From the NCBI RefSeq assembly GCF_022808815.1, contig NZ_JAKZLC010000005.1, forward strand, positions 124,001-188,000: 64,000 bases of DNA. Reading direction: 5' to 3'. The DNA comes from Geothrix paludis. GTDB lineage: Bacteria > Acidobacteriota > Holophagae > Holophagales > Holophagaceae. The position numbers and the translations under genes were made by a program. The notes under the pieces were generated by a model, which saw only the letters and a program-made list of their open reading frames with translations, did not search any database and was not told where the DNA came from. Below are positions 971 through 15,368 of the stretch, in pieces. Position 1 is the stretch's first letter. Each line of letters starts with the position of its first letter.

Positions 971-1366
971 CTGAACCTCACGCTCCGCCACAAGGCCCAG
1001 GCCATCCTCCGAGAGGCGGGATGGGAACTCGCGCCGCCACCTGTGATCTGGTCCCCGCGCATGGCACGGTGCGCGGGGCTCTTCGTGATCGAGAAGGACT
1101 CGCGTGGCAAGTGGCATCCGGAGATCCGCCTCAGCATCCCCCTGCTGCGCCGCCGGGACTGGCCCTGGCCCCAGCCGGTCTGCGGGATGAACTGCCACAC
1201 GCCCGACGACATCCAGCGGCGCATCCTCGAGCACGAACTGATTCACTTCAAGCTCTGGATGGACCGGGAGCGGGACTGGGGCCATACGGAGCGGTTCCGG
1301 CAGTTGGCCTGGGAGGTGTTCGGGCACCAGAGCATTACCCACGGCATCGGCTCGGAACCTGATTAG
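971..1366 (+). CDS. SprT-like zinc metalloprotein
   Basis: About 131 residues if it starts at CTG 971, which has GGAGAG just upstream (958-963); GTG 1043 is the first standard start but would remove a plausible N-terminal helix. The core HELIHFKLW is an HExxH zinc site, and GHTERFRQLAWE downstream gives the third ligand region, the layout of SprT-like domains. Family members act as DNA-protein crosslink proteases or unknown metalloproteins. The visible C-terminus (THGIGSEPD) lies at the edge of a repeat array, and a second copy of the THGIG coding sequence appears beyond the array, so the 3' end may have been remodelled. Confidence 0.65.
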   Translation: MNLTLRHKAQAILREAGWELAPPPVIWSPRMARCAGLFVIEKDSRGKWHPEIRLSIPLLRRRDWPWPQPVCGMNCHTPDDIQRRILEHELIHFKLWMDRERDWGHTERFRQLAWEVFGHQSITHGIGSEPD

Positions 1367-1605
1367 TCCAGCGCGCGAGTTCGGCATGATTCGCTCCTTG
1401 TGGGGGCCCCGCTCCGCAGGCTCCCCCGGAGCCTGCTCTGCGACCCACATGGTCAAACTCGCTCCCTGTGGGGCCCCGCTCTGCAGGCTCCCCCGGAGCC
1501 TGCTCCGCGACCCACATGGTCAAACTCGCTCCCTGTGGGGCCCCGCTCTGCAGGCTCCCCCGGAGCCTGCTCCGCGACCCACATGGTCGCGACCCACGGC
1601 ATCGG
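1337..1605. repeat. 67-bp tandem hairpin repeats flanked by 14-bp direct repeats
   Basis: About three copies of a 67-bp unit run from roughly 1386 to 1590, with matching points at 1449, 1516 and 1583; the first copy is about 4 bp shorter. Each unit carries a perfect inverted repeat GCAGGCTCC-CCC-GGAGCCTGC (one arm change in the first copy). The array is bracketed by the identical 14-mer ACCCACGGCATCGG at 1337-1350 (inside the end of the SprT-like gene) and 1592-1605. I see no gene in it; small frames across it are repeats of the same DNA in different frames. Confidence 0.8.
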
Positions 1606-1657
1606 GCACGAGTCGGGGTGAGGGCTGGGACCGGCCCGCCGGAGGATCCGGTCTTCC

Positions 1658-7785: not shown

Positions 7786-9027
7786 ATGCATATCAACGAA
7801 CTGCTCACCGTGGTCTGCGAGCAGGGCGCCAGCGACCTCCACCTCAAGGTCGGCAACCACCCCATCGCCCGCATCAAGGGAAAACTCACGCCCATGACGC
7901 AGTTCAAGCGCCTGGTGCAGGAGGACACCATCGCCATGGCCTACGCCATCATGGCCAGCGACAAGCAGAAGGCGAAGTTCAAGGAGAACCTCGACCTCGA
8001 CATCGCCTATTCCGTTCCGAGCCTCGGCCGATTCCGCTGCAACATCTTCAACCAGCGCGGCACCGTGGGCCTCGTCCTCCGCGTGATCCCCCGGAAGATC
8101 TACACCATCGACGACCTGATGCTCCCCAAGGTCCTCAAGACCATCTGCCAGGAGCAGCGCGGTCTCGTGCTGGTGACGGGCACCACGGGATCGGGCAAGT
8201 CCACGACCCTGGCCGCCATGATCGACCTCATCAACGCCACCCGGTCCGAGCACATCCTCACCATCGAGGACCCCATCGAGTACCTGCACCGGGACAACCT
8301 CAGCATCGTGAACCAGCGCGAGGTGGAGGCGGACTGCAAGACCTTCGCCACGGCCCTGCGCGCCGCCCTCCGCCAGGACCCGGACGTGATCCTCGTGGGT
8401 GAGATGCGCGACCTGGAGACCATCGAGACGGCCCTGCACGCCGCCGAGACAGGCCATCTGGTCTTCAGCACCCTGCACACCCTGGATGCCACGGAGACCA
8501 TCAACCGCGTCATCTCCGTGTTCCCGCCCCACCACCAGAAGCAGATCCGCCTCCAGATGGCGGCTGTGCTCAAGGGCATCATCTCCCAGCGCCTGGTGCC
8601 CCGGGCCGACGGCCAGGGCCGTGTGCCCGCCGTGGAGGTCATGGTGGCCACCGAGACCGTCCGCACCTGCATCGAGGACAAGGACAAGACCAAGATGCTG
8701 AAGGACGTCATCGCCGCGGGCACGGCCCAGTACGGCATGCAGACCTTCGACCAGAGCCTCTACTTCCTGCTGCGCCAGGGTCTCATCACCGAGGAGGAGG
8801 CCCTGCTGCGCGCCACCAACGTGGGCGAGTTCAAGCTGCGGCTCGAAGGCGTCATGGCCACGGCGGACATGGCCCGGGCCAACATGGAGCGCGGCATGTC
8901 CATCGCCCAGGGCGGAGGCCGGGAATCCGGCGCGCCGTCGGCCCCGCCCCAGGTCCAGCCCCCCGCCCCGGGCATGCCCATGGCCATGCCTCCGGGCACC
9001 GACGTGAAAATCACCCTGGCACGCTGA
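7786..9027 (+). CDS. pilT: Type IV pilus retraction ATPase PilT
   Basis: 413 residues. The protein powers pilus retraction for twitching motility. Walker A is GTTGSGKST at residues 132-140, the Asp box is TIEDPIEY at 159-166, Walker B is VILVGEMRD near 201-209, and the His box TGHLVFSTLHT follows. The N-terminal PAS-like domain opens with MHINELLTVVCEQGASDLHL, the usual PilT start. The last 45 residues are Gly/Pro/Met-rich and longer than in most PilT proteins. A TAAGAT hexamer at 7754-7759 could be its -10 box. No other pilus gene is in the window. Confidence 0.95.
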   Translation: MHINELLTVVCEQGASDLHLKVGNHPIARIKGKLTPMTQFKRLVQEDTIAMAYAIMASDKQKAKFKENLDLDIAYSVPSLGRFRCNIFNQRGTVGLVLRVIPRKIYTIDDLMLPKVLKTICQEQRGLVLVTGTTGSGKSTTLAAMIDLINATRSEHILTIEDPIEYLHRDNLSIVNQREVEADCKTFATALRAALRQDPDVILVGEMRDLETIETALHAAETGHLVFSTLHTLDATETINRVISVFPPHHQKQIRLQMAAVLKGIISQRLVPRADGQGRVPAVEVMVATETVRTCIEDKDKTKMLKDVIAAGTAQYGMQTFDQSLYFLLRQGLITEEEALLRATNVGEFKLRLEGVMATADMARANMERGMSIAQGGGRESGAPSAPPQVQPPAPGMPMAMPPGTDVKITLAR

Positions 9028-9076
9028 CCGCCCTTCCCCTTATCCTGGCTCTCCCACCCCCGAACCGAGGTCGCCG

Positions 9077-9352
9077 ATGATCAAGATCGACATCGCCAAT
9101 TCGCTGATGAAGGTTCATCCCTGCTCCCGCGCCACCGCCCTCCAGGTGGTGGACCTCCTCACGGAGCGCCTCAAGGACGCCCTCCTGAACGGGCACCGCA
9201 TCGAGATCCGGGGCTTCGGCGTCTTCGAGCCCCGTCCCCGCAAGCGCGGCATGGGCCGGAACATCAAGACCGGCGCCAGCGTCCAGATCCCCAAGGGCAA
9301 GAGCATCCGCTTCAAGCCGGGAAAGGACCTGCGGGAGATCGAGGTCGGGTAG
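9077..9352 (+). CDS. HU/IHF-family DNA-binding protein with Ile at position 63
   Basis: 91 residues, the usual length. It has the two N-terminal helices, the IEIRGFGVFEPR strand and the basic arm, and ends IRFKPGKDLREIEVG. It is closest in shape to IHF-beta-like proteins. The arm reads GRNIKTGAS, whereas the family consensus is GRNPxTG; the Pro that intercalates between base pairs (position 63 in HU) is Ile here. This may change DNA bending. The gene follows pilT by 49 bp on the same strand. Confidence 0.93.
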   Translation: MIKIDIANSLMKVHPCSRATALQVVDLLTERLKDALLNGHRIEIRGFGVFEPRPRKRGMGRNIKTGASVQIPKGKSIRFKPGKDLREIEVG

Positions 9353-9675
9353 GCCGCCTTCCGGTGTAGCCCCTGGGGGCAGAAAAAGATCACCACGAAG
9401 GACACGAAGGCACCCTGCGGGCTCACACAGACCACGAATGGGTCTCGACACACCTTCGGCATCCCTTTGCGAGCGACAACCATGGCGGCCCTTCAAAGCC
9501 GCCTGGGGCCGCCGCCCGCAAAGCCGGTCGCGCTCCCGCGCGCCCGTGGGCGGCAGGCCCGGATGCCCCGTGCCGAAGCCCCGGAACAGACCTTCGTGCC
9601 CTCGGTTTTCGCTTCGTGCCCTTCGTGGAGACATTTGAAGGCCCGAACCGCCAGTGTCTGCAGATCAGCGAGGGT
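9353..9675. repeat. Intergenic inverted-iteron block
   Basis: No gene is seen. The left side carries CCACGAAGGACACGAAGG (about 9392-9410) and the right side the complementary series CTTCGTGCCC...GCTTCGTGCCCTTCGTGG (about 9594-9628). Between them is a GC-rich core containing CCATGGCGGCCC and GCCGCCGCCCGC, which recurs in the block at 59275-59737. Confidence 0.6.
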
Positions 9676-11115
9676 CTATCCAACCAGCTCGGAAGCCGCA
9701 GCCTGGAGGCGGTCCAGGGCTTCGTCCACTTGGTCCTTGTGGGTGCGGGCGGCGAGGATGGCCAGGCGCAAGTGGAAGGCGCCGTTCAGCTTGGTGCCGC
9801 TGAGGAAGACCCGGCCCTCGGCCGTCAGGCGCTGCAGCAGGGCCTGGTTGAAGGCATTGGCGTCGCCGGCCCTGGGCAGGAACCGGAAGGCCAGGACGCT
9901 GAGTTGGGGCGCGGGCCCCGGATCCACGCCGGTCATGCCCTGGAGCCGCTCGTAGGCGTACCGGGCCAGGAGGAGCTTCTCCTCCAGGGCGGCGCGGAAG
10001 GCCGCCACGCCATGCACCTGGAGGGGCAGCCACAGGCGCAGGGCCCGGGCGTGCTTGCTGAATTCGAGGGTGGTCTCCGAGGGGCTCAGTTCCTCCAGGT
10101 CCTCCGGCGGCGAGGGCAGGTAGTCCGCCTGGAAGGCGTGGGCTCGCCGCAGGGGCTCCAGGTGCCGCGTCAGCAGGGCCCCCAGGCCCAGGGGCGCGAA
10201 GAGGCCCTTGTGGGGGTCCAGCACCAGGCTGTCGCTGCGCTCCAGGCCCCGGAGAGCGGCCTTCCCCAGGTCCGTCAGAGCGAAGGAGGCCCCGTAGGCA
10301 CCGTCCGTGTGCATCCAGAGGCCGTGGCGGACGGCCAGGTCTGCGCAGGCTTCCAGCGGGTCCACGGCCCCCGTGTTGGTGGTGCCGGCGGTGGGTACCA
10401 GCAGCCAGGGGCGTAGCCCGGCCCGCAGGTCTGCCTGGATGGCGGCCTCCAGGACCTCGGGCCGCAGGCGGAAATAGGCATCCGTGGGGATCTCCCGCAC
10501 GAGCGCCTCGCCCATGCCGGCGACGCGAAGGGCCTTCACGAGGCAGTGGTGGGCCTGGTCCGACAGGTACACACAGGCCTTCGGATAATCCGCCGCCTTG
10601 AGGCCCGCAGCCTCCCGGGCCGTGCAGACGCCCACCAGGTGGGCCATGCTGCCCCCCGCGGCCAGGTTGCCCGAGCTGCCCTCGGGCAGGCCCATCTCCC
10701 GGGCCAGCCAGCCGAGAACCTGGTTCTCCATCCGCACGGCGCCGGGCCCCGCGAAGAAGTAGGCCGCATAGCGGTTGGTGAGGGCCGCCAGCAGGTCGCC
10801 CAGGGCTCCCGTGAAGAGGGAGGAGGGCGGGATGAAGGCCAGGTGGCGGCCGGAGGCCCCGTTGGCCCCCACGCCATCCACGTGCTCGCCCAAGGCGCTC
10901 AGCACCTGGGGGAAGGGGCGCCCCGCCTCGGGGATGGGGAAGTCCGCCAGGCCGGCCCCAGGCCGGTCCTTCTCCACGAACGCAGGGGCCTCCGGCAGGG
11001 CCCCGAGGAATCCCTCGGCATAGCCCCGGGCCGCCTCCCACAGCGCCGCCCGCGCCTCCGCTCCGGGGTCCAGCAGCCGCGACTGCGCTTCCAGGTCCTT
11101 CAGACGATCCAGCAC
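9676..11115 (-). CDS. PLP-dependent amino acid decarboxylase (group II, AADC/GAD-like)
   Basis: 479 residues from GTG 11115, preceded by GGAGG; the longer frame upstream runs into the divergent DUF493 gene and lacks homology-like sequence. Group II decarboxylases remove the alpha-carboxylate from aromatic amino acids, glutamate or similar substrates with PLP. The PLP lysine is in LDPHKGLFAPLG, and the preceding GLWMHTDGAYGASFAL supplies the Asp that contacts the PLP ring. AGGSMAHLVGVCTARE and LSDQAHHCLVKA are also typical. The substrate cannot be read from the sequence. Confidence 0.85.
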   Translation of the reverse strand: MLDRLKDLEAQSRLLDPGAEARAALWEAARGYAEGFLGALPEAPAFVEKDRPGAGLADFPIPEAGRPFPQVLSALGEHVDGVGANGASGRHLAFIPPSSLFTGALGDLLAALTNRYAAYFFAGPGAVRMENQVLGWLAREMGLPEGSSGNLAAGGSMAHLVGVCTAREAAGLKAADYPKACVYLSDQAHHCLVKALRVAGMGEALVREIPTDAYFRLRPEVLEAAIQADLRAGLRPWLLVPTAGTTNTGAVDPLEACADLAVRHGLWMHTDGAYGASFALTDLGKAALRGLERSDSLVLDPHKGLFAPLGLGALLTRHLEPLRRAHAFQADYLPSPPEDLEELSPSETTLEFSKHARALRLWLPLQVHGVAAFRAALEEKLLLARYAYERLQGMTGVDPGPAPQLSVLAFRFLPRAGDANAFNQALLQRLTAEGRVFLSGTKLNGAFHLRLAILAARTHKDQVDEALDRLQAAASELVG

Positions 11116-11160
11116 GGGGGGCCTCCGACCCTCCAGCCTACCAAGGGGTACAATGACGTC

Positions 11161-11430
11161 ATGGAAGCTTGCCGCCGCCCCGAAGTCACCTACCCCAACC
11201 GCATCCCCATGAAGATCATCGGGCGCCTGGAGGAACTGCGCCCCGACATGGTCATGGAGCTGATCCTCGCCCACCTGGGGCCCCAGGCCGACGGCGACGA
11301 GCAGCACACCGCCGCCTGCAAGGGCGCCTTCATCAGCTACACCTTCTGGGTCACCCTGCCCCACAGCCAAGCCGAGACGCCCCTGCGGGAGGCGATCCAG
11401 AAGCTTCCTGGCGTGGTCATGCAGTTGTGA
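11161..11430 (+). CDS. DUF493 / YbeD-like protein
   Basis: 89 residues from ATG 11161. The pattern YPNRIPMKIIGRLEEL, a central AFISYTFWVTL strand and a final LREAIQKLPGVVMQL matches the small YbeD-like ACT-fold family (DUF493). A regulatory ligand-binding role is often suggested but not established. It is divergent from the decarboxylase, whose start lies 45 bp away. Confidence 0.8.
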   Translation: MEACRRPEVTYPNRIPMKIIGRLEELRPDMVMELILAHLGPQADGDEQHTAACKGAFISYTFWVTLPHSQAETPLREAIQKLPGVVMQL

Positions 11431-11433
11431 GGG

Positions 11434-11554
11434 CAGTCCTCAGGGGTCAGTCCTCAGACCTCGGTGGCGTGGGCAGCGCCCGCGCCTGAAAACAAGAACG
11501 CGGCCGGAAGGCCGCATCCTTATTCCACTGAAGACTGAGGACTGAGGACTGAGG
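11434..11554. repeat. Inverted CTGAGGACTG iterons
   Basis: CAGTCCTCAG occurs twice at 11434-11443 and 11448-11457; the complementary ACTGAGG is repeated three times at 11534-11554. A small hairpin GCGGCC-GGAA-GGCCGC lies between them near 11500, and could end transcription of the DUF493 gene. No coding sequence is seen. Confidence 0.6.
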
Positions 11555-11613
11555 CCTACGGCCTCAACGTCCCCATCATGCGGGGATACGGAATGGTCTC
11601 CCGTGCATGCGGC
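11551..11613 (-). pseudogene. Relic of a second asnS 3' end
   Basis: About 53 of 63 positions match the end of asnS (11706-11768). Read on the minus strand it encodes [17 protein letters not shown] and a TAG stop, against [17 protein letters not shown] and TAG in the intact gene. Of the 18 codons, five differ silently and one changes Val to Ala. Upstream of these codons the match to asnS stops. Confidence 0.8.
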
Positions 11614-11710
11614 GAGGGAGGAAGCGGGGTCCCGCCGGCCCGAGTCGGAGCAGGGCCAAGTCCTGCGGAGGCTGCCGTCCGCGAGGAACGAGCGGTGTCG
11701 TGGCCGAGCG

Positions 11711-13012
11711 CTACGGCCTGAGCGTACCCATCATGCGGGGATAAGGGATGGTCTCCCTCACATGCGGCAGCTTGCAGATCCACGCCACGGCGCGCTCGAG
11801 GCCCATGCCGAAGCCGGCGTGGGGGACGCTGCCGTACTTGCGGACGTCCAGGTACCACTCGTAGTCGGCGCGACTGAGGCCCTCATGCTCGATCTGGTCT
11901 AGGAGGTACTGGAGGCTGGTGGCGCGCTCGCCGCCGCCAATGACCTCGCCGTAGCCCTCGGGGGCCAGCAGGTCGGCGCCCAGGGCCAGGCGGGGATCGA
12001 GAGGGTCCGGTTCCATGTAGAAGGCCTTGAAGGCTTTCGGGAAGCGATGCACCCACAGCGGCTTGTCCGTGGCGTTCATGAGCATGGTCTCGTCATCATT
12101 GCCGAAGTCCTCGCCCCAGTTGATGTCGCTGCCGAGCGTCTTCAGCTTCTCCACGGCCTCGGTGTAGGTCATGCGGTCGAAGGTGGTGTTCAGGGCCGTC
12201 TCCAGGGGCGCCGTGTCGCGCTCGAGGATCTTCAGCTCCTCCTGGCGGCCCTCCAGCACGCGCTGGATGAGGAACTTGGTCATGCGCTCGCCGAGCGCCA
12301 TCACGTCGTCCAGATGGGCGAAGGCCACTTCGGGCTCCACCATCCAGAACTCGGTGAGGTGGCGGCGGGTCTTGCTCTTCTCGGCGCGGAAGGTGGGGCC
12401 GAAGCAGTAGACCTTGCCGAAGGCGGCGATGCCGGGCTCCTGGTAGAGCTGGCCCGACTGGCTGAGGAAGGCCGTGCCCTCGTGGAAGTACTCGGTGCCG
12501 AACAGCGTGCTGGTGCCCTCGCAGGCGCTGGGCGTGAGGATGGGCGCGTCCAGCAGCGTGAAGCCGTCGCCGTCAAAGAAGTCGCGAATGCCCTTCACCA
12601 GGGTGTGGCGGATGCGGAGGATGGCCCACTGGCGCTTGCTGCGCAGCCAGAGGTGCCGGTTCTCCATGAGGAACTCGGTACCGTGCTCCTTGGGGGTGAT
12701 GGGGAAGTCCACGCTGCCGCCGACGAGCTCCAGCGACTTCACCAGCAGCTCCGGTTGGCCAGTCTTGGGGTGCTGCTGGACGACTCCGGTCACGATGATG
12801 GAGGATTCCTGCGTGAGCTTCCCGGCCAACTCGTAGCTCTCGGGGTCCACCTCGGCGGCGCCGACGACGCACTGGACGAAGCCGGAGCCGTCCCGCAGCT
12901 CGATGAAGCGGGTCTTGCTGGTGCGGGCATTGCGGACCCAGCCCCGCAGCCGGACAGTCTCGCCGACCTGGCCGGCGAGGAATCGGACTTCGGTGAAGGG
13001 CTGGCTGCTCAC
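11711..13012 (-). CDS. asnS: Asparagine--tRNA ligase
   Basis: 433 residues from GTG 13012, which has AGGAG upstream; the longer frame extends into the inverted-repeat element. It charges tRNA-Asn with asparagine. The N-terminal OB-fold anticodon domain ([20 protein letters not shown]) is followed by a class II catalytic core: motif 2 region [20 protein letters not shown] and motif 3 [13 protein letters not shown]. The form [11 protein letters not shown] fits AsnRS rather than AspRS. A short relic of a related 3' end lies about 95 bp downstream of the stop. Confidence 0.96.
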
Positions 13013-13072
13013 GGGGGCTCCTGGGCCTAAACCTCTATTGTGCCCGGGGAAAGGAGCCGGCTCCAGGGCCCC

Positions 13073-13344
13073 AGGGCCTGTTTTCAAAGTGGGACGCCGC
13101 CGCGACGCTGCCCAGCCGCGCTCATGGCAAGGCGACGGCCGAAGGGCGATGCGGGACATCGTTCGAGGCCGGCAACGCAGCCAGGGGTGCGGCTGGTCAG
13201 CGTCCCGGAGGGCAAGGGGCGGCGCCCGGCGCGATGCTGCGTCAAGCTCCTCGACGATGGACCCACCATCGCCTTCGTCACTTTCCTTGCCTCGCTTGGG
13301 CGGCGCCCCTTGCGCGGCCACGCCCCACGTTGAAAACAGGCCCT
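13073..13344. mobile_element. Short element with 24-bp terminal inverted repeats (MITE-like)
   Basis: The ends 13073-13096 and 13321-13344 are inverted copies: AGGGCCTGTTTTCAA is identical, followed by one mismatch, GTGGG identical, one mismatch, then CG. The 272-bp element is too short for a transposase and its small frames look non-coding. Its right end overlaps the stop codon of the neighbouring CheY-like gene. No target duplication could be identified with confidence. Confidence 0.65.
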
Positions 13345-13699
13345 AGCCCAACAAGGAGTCGATCTTCTCCCTGAGCGATTCCTGCGTGAACGGCTTCACC
13401 ACGTAGGTGCTCACGCCGGCCTCGAGGGCCTGGACGATGTCCTGGGTGGCGGCGTGCGTGGTGACCATGAGGATGGGCATGCTAGCGCCCCGGCCCCGCA
13501 CGGCCCGGGCGAACGCGATCCCGTCCATCTCCGGCATGTCCCAGTCGGTGATGATGAGGTCCACCCCGCCCCGATCCAGCTGCTCCAGCCCGGACCGGCC
13601 GTTTTCGCCCTCCACCACGTCCGTATGCCCCAGACGGGAGAGGTTGCCGATGATGATGCGCCGCATGGTCGGGGAATCGTCCACCACGAGGATCTTCAC
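13343..13699 (-). CDS. CheY-like single-domain response regulator
   Basis: 118 residues from GTG 13699. It is a bare receiver domain: acidic pair VVDDSPTMRR, phospho-acceptor Asp in LIITDWDMPEMDG, a switch threonine in ILMVTTHA and the Lys in YVVKPFT. CheY-like proteins pass a phosphate signal to the flagellar motor, pili or other partners; no kinase is next to it. The TAG stop (13345-13343) lies within the inverted repeat of the adjacent element, so the original C-terminus may have been trimmed by only a residue or so; the domain appears complete. Confidence 0.9.
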   Translation of the reverse strand: MKILVVDDSPTMRRIIIGNLSRLGHTDVVEGENGRSGLEQLDRGGVDLIITDWDMPEMDGIAFARAVRGRGASMPILMVTTHAATQDIVQALEAGVSTYVVKPFTQESLREKIDSLLG

Positions 13700-13867
13700 G
13701 GAGGCTCCAGGGAAGGGGAGGCGCCCGGGGCGCTCCCGGCATTGTCTCCCAATCAGAACGGTTTGGAACGTCGTCAAATCTGGCCCCAGCGGCCCCCGGT
13801 CCGGGATCGGGCTGGGATAGACTGGGTCCCGTGCGCGCGCCCCGCGGGGGCGCACCCCGGAGGTTCC

Positions 13868-14409
13868 ATGCCCGAAGCCCAAGGCCCCTGCCCCATGGAC
13901 CCCGGCCAGATGGACGCCACCCTCCGGCGGCTGGCCGCAGACCTGGTGACCCGCCTCCGCCCCGAGGAGGAAGTCGTCCTCCTGGGCATCCGCTCCCGGG
14001 GCCTGCCCCTGGCCGAGCGTCTGGCCACCCACCTCCGCGCCGCCACCGGGGCCGCGGTTCCCGTGGGCGCCCTGGACATCACCCTCTACCGGGACGATCT
14101 CACGGAGATGGTGGGCAGCCCCATCGTCCGGCCCACGGAGATCCCCTTCACCCTGAAGGAGCGCACGGTGGTGCTGGTGGACGATGTGCTCTACACGGGC
14201 CGCACGGTTCGGGCGGCGCTGGACGCCCTGCTGGACCACGGCCGGCCCCGCCGGGTGATGCTGCTGGTGCTGGCGGACCGCAGCGGCCGCGAGCTGCCCA
14301 TCCAGGCCGATCTGGCTGGCCTGCGGGTGGAGGTGCCGCCGGGCCACCGGGTGGCCGTGCGGCTGAAGGAAATCGATGGTGAAGACGGCGTGACCGTGGA
14401 GGCCTGCTG

Positions 14410-14410
<1 letters not shown>
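13868..14410 (+). CDS. pyrR: PyrR-type phosphoribosyltransferase / pyrimidine regulator
   Basis: 180 residues from ATG 13868, with GGAGG at 13859-13863. PyrR has uracil phosphoribosyltransferase activity and in some bacteria binds pyr mRNA. The PRPP-binding motif is VVLVDDVLYTGRTVRAALDA; the N-terminal LLGIRSRGLPLAERLA and the ALDITLYRDDL loop are typical. It heads an overlapping run with pyrB. A GC-rich imperfect hairpin (about 13831-13856) sits just upstream of the ribosome site, so translational or attenuation control is possible but not shown. Confidence 0.93.

Positions 14411-15368
<958 letters not shown>

Follow-up and report, generated by a model that had tools for sequence, protein, structure and literature searches.

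The stretch of DNA analysed here (the window) comprises 64,000 nucleotides of a Geothrix paludis contig; its genome is designated G000. The window includes asnS, coding for asparaginyl-tRNA synthetase, and a SprT-like gene, each followed by a second copy of its own 3' end (Table 1). Behind asnS, positions 11551-11613 and 11706-11768 form the longest direct repeat within 8000-15000 (63 nt, 84%). Read on the minus strand, the far copy is in register with the end of the gene, as 18 codons followed by TAG, and the two copies differ at 8 nt over 57 nt, which amounts to five silently changed codons and a single replacement, Val to Ala. The second asnS 3' end that an initial annotation of this DNA had placed downstream of the gene is thus confirmed. 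In a search of the genome, the match between the copies is far beyond chance (E = 5.3e-13), and no third copy was reported. The spacer between the copies is only 98 nt long because its central hairpin, about 37 nt, has been lost in this genome. It represents a shortened form of the spacer found conserved among related species, with 86% identity to the one of G015 over query positions 3-93, and the sister genome G006 carries a different deletion in it. The far copy is probably the older end of asnS, displaced by a cassette.

Table 1. Features of the window at the SprT-like gene and at asnS.
Feature	Position	Strand	Basis
SprT-like gene, second cassette at 3' end	971..1366	+	G000:C5:124971-125363 = 971-1363, plus stop
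Hairpin copy 1	1387..1458	+	Model R1, 84.3 bits
Hairpin copy 2	1455..1525	+	Model R1, 81.3 bits
Hairpin copy 3	1522..1592	+	Model R1, 84.6 bits
Far copy of SprT-like gene end (HGIGHESG + stop)	1593..1621	+	Sequence comparison
Far copy of asnS 3' end (18 codons + stop)	11556..11612	-	Sequence comparison
Spacer (cassette tail + decayed hairpin)	11613..11710	-	Alignment; central hairpin deleted
asnS (asparaginyl-tRNA synthetase)	11711..13012	-	Pfam tRNA-synt_2, 236 bits
Near copy of asnS end (last 57 nt of gene)	11711-11767	-	

Other repeats are found in the vicinity of asnS. Just upstream of the gene, an inverted repeat at 13073-13344 with 32-nt arms (AGGGCCTGTTTTCAA...), 88% complementary and 208 nt apart, resembles a small transposable element. 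Units of the type TCAGTCCTCAG are clustered as inverted arms at 11434-11551, between the asnS relic and a small gene at 11160-11431, and strings similar to these clusters follow asnS at loci L018 and L030. Palindromic intergenic repeats of the CACGAAGGACACGAAG type are present at 9385-9636 of the window and, at L006, L010 and L011, downstream of asnS.

The end of asnS across Geothrix

The asnS gene was located in 60 genomes and its 3' side was read at 31 Geothrix loci (30 of these genomes plus L271). One or two extra asnS ends lie 3' of the gene at 10 of the 31 loci, those of G002 and G013 being degenerate. The copies are separated by a GC-rich and hairpin-rich spacer of about 140 nt which is common to several species. 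Across the 15 pairs formed by six genomes in which the spacer is complete (excluding G013), this spacer diverges by 3.6-12.9% versus 13-26% at the third codon positions of asnS in the same genomes; such conservation of non-coding sequence might be due to a constraint on structure and not to recent transfer. In G006 and G030 (L002, L025), asnS is separated from its usual neighbour by similar extra sequence, and the 3' side of asnS may therefore be a wider insertion spot.

Copies adjacent to the gene tend to be close to the host's own gene (0, 1 and 2 differences per 57 nt in G015, G001 and G025, respectively), and distal copies are further from it (8 in G000, 9 in G025 and 12 in G060). Only the Leu-Arg codons separate groups of asnS ends. 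Near the end, the Leu codon reads TTG in all six distal relics still in register (G000, G006, G018, G025, G060 and G026), in none of the 10 gene ends at filled loci, that is, those carrying extra ends, and in 8 of 20 empty ones; the four other distal relics are either degenerate (three) or, in G015, identical to the gene. A CTCAGG signature is found at the end of seven of the 10 relic-bearing asnS genes, including that of the window. This codon pattern is suggestive of a native far copy. It falls short of proof because eight of the ten filled loci belong to one clade, so that shared ancestry with losses is possible. As for the comparison with related species that the initial annotation had proposed, it gives a mixed answer at this locus: the relic is not clearly nearer to any one species, with 7 differences over 57 nt to five other species and 8 to its own gene, and the Leu-Arg codons alone set the groups apart. 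Hence these short distances leave the native copy at asnS undecided, and it is at the SprT-like gene that a native far end was observed. The G015 relic, with 0 of 57 positions different from its own gene, indicates that local duplication or conversion appears to occur as well.

A family of dispersed hairpins

Part of the asnS spacer matched other sites in genomes of the genus, and its core proved to be a member of a dispersed family of 71-nt hairpins. Copies were retrieved in 21 of 47 genus genomes with a sequence pattern, and an alignment (A1) and a covariance model (R1) were built from 23 sequences. In the model, 17 base pairs are formed, with 96.7% of cells paired versus 86.6% in shuffles, and compensatory change is apparent from 37 cells altered on both sides versus 12.3 in shuffles. 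The hairpin is conserved at its centre and not at its ends, which are mostly TTCGCTC and GGTCGCGA. With R1 and a threshold of E = 0.1, matches were obtained in 60 of 77 Holophagaceae genomes, with up to 24 copies per genome. At E up to 0.001, a class-wide run matched 57 of 93 genomes, all of them Holophagaceae, and none of the 16 genomes from two other families of the class. A cmscan of L096, L091, L102, L031, L059 and L104 against Rfam returned no family over the hairpin, and among nine further loci it returned only SRP RNA and tmRNA genes; in the loci scanned, the family is absent from Rfam.

To describe the surroundings of the hairpin, 160 nt on the left of 92 matches were compared with 130 nt on the right, 90 of them being usable. 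For 46 of these 90 hairpins, a duplicate begins no more than 3 nt from the right base, versus 5 of 1000 unrelated flank pairs; the other 44 have no anchored duplicate by this test. The polarity is fixed: the hairpin always has the gene body on its left, and the far copy begins at its right base. None of 63 over-threshold alignments is anchored at the left junction alone, barring two SRP RNA loci at which full-length copies begin 4 nt from the right junction. The near copy starts at a median distance of 51 nt ahead of the hairpin (range 28-153 nt; 44-57 nt in 29 of 56). Hairpin arrays terminate in a gene end and not in a spacer, and tandem arrays of near-identical units occur at L154, L191, L219 and L225. 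The identical 53-bp duplication of G010 (L096) had been a candidate founder; set against the empty locus of G060, it looks by eye more like two units, of which the second has no hairpin.

The genes concerned are diverse. Profiles identified GroEL, a XerD-type recombinase, ElbB, 4-hydroxyphenylpyruvate dioxygenase, asparaginase, glutaredoxin and SprT-like proteins, as well as MutS and MiaB, which are hit at their starts; several of these matches fall short of the curated cut-off, the proteins having been truncated. Among RNA genes, SRP RNA and, at its 5' end, tmRNA are affected. Moreover, further targets are, as we presume from reading their sequences, a MacB-like permease, queA and a MerR-like gene. 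The asnS relic is thus no lone relic and belongs to a recurring family of cassettes.

Silent and non-silent differences were counted, in reading frames set by hand, at 34 of the 92 hairpins, namely those whose duplicate exceeded the threshold and could be read in frame. Over 371 codons, 46 differences are silent and 37 non-silent, whereas random single changes are expected to be silent in 23.5% of cases (p = 6e-10, an optimistic value because the loci are not all independent). Moreover, 31 of the 34 far copies stop in frame near the expected place, the exceptions being L146, L167 and L191. Silent-biased divergence as the sign of a coding history, proposed by the initial annotation for asnS, holds as a rule of the hairpin family.

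Filled and empty alleles at the SprT-like gene

The segment 971-1621 of the window, with three tandem hairpins and a far copy, is a better preserved example of the cassette than asnS. The orthologue in G025 matches Pfam SprT-like with 36 bits, and 11 of 30 orthologous loci are filled. In the filled G009, the near copy ends in HGIGSEPD, with a tail common to distant species, while the far end, HGIGHEG, and the sequence downstream are those of the empty G066. Filled G025 and empty G015 follow the same pattern. In these two pairs, the far copy at the SprT-like gene is the native end and the near copy arrived with the hairpin. On the left of the insertion, divergence in the two pairs amounts to 7-15% in the first three 100-nt segments, versus 2-15% on the right; beyond these segments the sequences fail to align, and the aligned part contains no long foreign tract. 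Between filled genomes (G064 being left out for its length), the tail and hairpin differ by 5-22% and third codon positions by 16-39%. The near and far coding copies are identical in G063 and G014 and not in G009 and G025; the near copy can therefore be the host's own sequence. Partial SprT-like copies, covering residues 1-97 or part of them, are also found at G007:C3:658351-658644, G008:C12:109429-109713 and G018:C7:132404-132646.

Proposed origin of the second gene ends

Established are the anatomy of the unit, its recurrence at many genes, its polarity, the silent bias and the native far ends at the SprT-like gene. The model that we propose is that of a cassette of about 120-200 bp, in which a copy of a host gene end (frequently about 50 nt, tail included) precedes an imperfect hairpin of about 71 nt. 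Such a unit would enter inside the end of a conserved gene, which would then end in the copy brought by the cassette and stay functional, the original end being pushed behind the hairpin. The hairpin would be what is recognized at the original insertion. Cassettes would then pass from one Geothrix species to another, the simplest route being homologous recombination or homing between filled and empty alleles. We infer that the focal asnS copy arose by such an insertion, and we consider it likely that the block behind asnS is the older 3' end of the gene, displaced beyond a gene-end cassette that has since decayed.

The initial annotation had explained the relic by homologous replacement of asnS with a foreign allele. 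A replacement of the whole gene, with the old end left behind and the spacer as a bystander, agrees with the silent divergence between the two ends and with the codon signature of the relics. It leaves unexplained, however, the fixed junction as well as the spacer and hairpin shared by 10 of the 31 asnS loci and by other genes, where the unit is about 120-200 bp, and at the SprT-like gene divergence in the two pairs is alike on the left and on the right of the insertion. We consider this explanation very improbable. The earlier reading is hence right in its core, an old end left behind, as the native far copy at the SprT-like gene illustrates and the 57-nt distances at asnS leave undecided, and wrong in scale and agent. 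An ancient local tandem duplication of gene end and spacer, persisting through slippage and gene conversion and involving no mobile unit, would account for the arrays of near-identical units and for the within-genome likeness of asnS copies in G001, G015 and G025. However, one hairpin core is found at many unrelated genes with a single polarity, arrays finish with a gene end and not with a spacer, and at the SprT-like gene the far copy matches sister species and the near copy distant ones, making such an origin improbable.

In 29 of 56 cases the near copy starts 44-57 nt ahead of the hairpin, which is also what a miniature element transposing with a long target-site duplication, about 50 bp, would leave, the gene end being duplicated without horizontal spread, and in some genomes the copies are identical. 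Were the far copy to decay neutrally, replacements would be expected to predominate, whereas silent changes are in excess, and a polarity towards the gene body is unexpected of a symmetrical insertion. When the flanking copies were compared at the SprT-like gene, they were identical in G063 and G014 and not in G009 and G025, with one polarity throughout, and the near copy of G009 is no duplicate of the native end. We regard this scenario as unlikely. Returning to the cassette model, a more specific version of it is conceivable, if somewhat doubtful: the hairpin, devoid of any open reading frame, might be a new kind of bacterial selfish DNA in Holophagaceae which homes into conserved gene ends and carries a functional substitute for them, the hairpin, as folded DNA or RNA, being recognized by an enzyme acting in trans and the gene-end copy providing the homology for aiming. 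If true, it would be nature's equivalent of a homing drive that has a rescue copy built in.

Candidate mobilizing systems were searched across the 47 genus genomes, and no fitting enzyme was found among Y1 transposases, RVT_1 reverse transcriptases and the integron integrase/attC system. Y1 transposases of the REP-RAYT type (PF01797) are present in only 5 genomes and absent from G006, G018 and G001, which contain 22-24 hairpin copies. Reverse transcriptases (RVT_1, PF00078) are found in 15 genomes and missing from several element-rich ones, with no match in G000, G001, G008, G018 and G025. A diversity-generating retroelement was rejected, the changes between copies, read by eye, extending beyond adenines and G000 having no RVT_1 match. 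Integron integrases exceed the curated cut-off in 29 genomes (e.g., G000:C2:579331-580275), and long attC-like sites with GCCTAAC...GTTAGGC ends lie near intI in several of them. The two ends of attC sites carry the consensus boxes RYYYAAC and GTTRRRY, which the hairpin ends lack, and the sites near intI differ from the hairpin in sequence; 10 intI regions together contain a single full-length match to R1 (L359, 66 bits).

The replacement of bacterial gene ends in a unit without its own enzyme points either to an enzyme acting in trans or to an unexpected ability of short hairpins to spread by recombination. The sites so affected include the ends of groEL, mutS, asnS, SRP RNA and tmRNA, and the final residues of conserved bacterial proteins may differ in history from the rest of their gene. 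Filled and empty alleles within Geothrix species make the cassette model directly testable.

Comparison with known systems

Bacterial integrative elements are known to restore the end of the gene that they enter, as SCC does at rlmH. Like the cassette, such elements provide a substitute gene end, displace the old one to their far side and can accrete in tandem; unlike them, the cassette has no recombinase gene and no cargo, and one hairpin core serves many target genes. Integron cassettes, like the Geothrix unit, are small, bear a hairpin on the right and form tandem arrays oriented in one direction, but the Geothrix hairpin differs from attC in sequence and is conserved in its centre instead of its ends. 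REP, RU/ERIC and MITE sequences are likewise short, hairpin-forming, enzyme-less and dispersed near genes, whereas a gene-end duplicate with fixed polarity, as seen in Geothrix, is not mentioned for them in the sections of these sources that were available (PMC2229807, PMC2759123, PMC3733652). In the literature searched, whose coverage was partial, no description of such a bacterial element was found.

The nearest anatomy described in the literature searched is that of fungal mitochondrial mobile ORFs (mORFs). These mobile ORFs bring a replacement C-terminus to atp6 in Allomyces and to atp6, atp9, cox2 and nad3 in Glomus, a homing endonuclease being held to drive the process (PMC3630166). Both systems have in common a gene body followed by a foreign C-terminal part, a mobile sequence and the native part downstream, and in both the native part is nearest to the sister species and divergence is largely synonymous (PMC3630166). 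Indeed, a foreign near end with a far end equal to the empty allele of the sister is what was found at the SprT-like gene in G009/G066 and G025/G015. The mitochondrial insert includes a gene for a homing endonuclease, hundreds of bp long (PMC3630166), whereas the Geothrix unit of 120-200 bp, with its hairpin, is too short for an endonuclease reading frame. Finally, unlike the mitochondrial mORFs as described there, the Geothrix cassette resides in bacterial chromosomes and also enters gene starts, SRP RNA and tmRNA.
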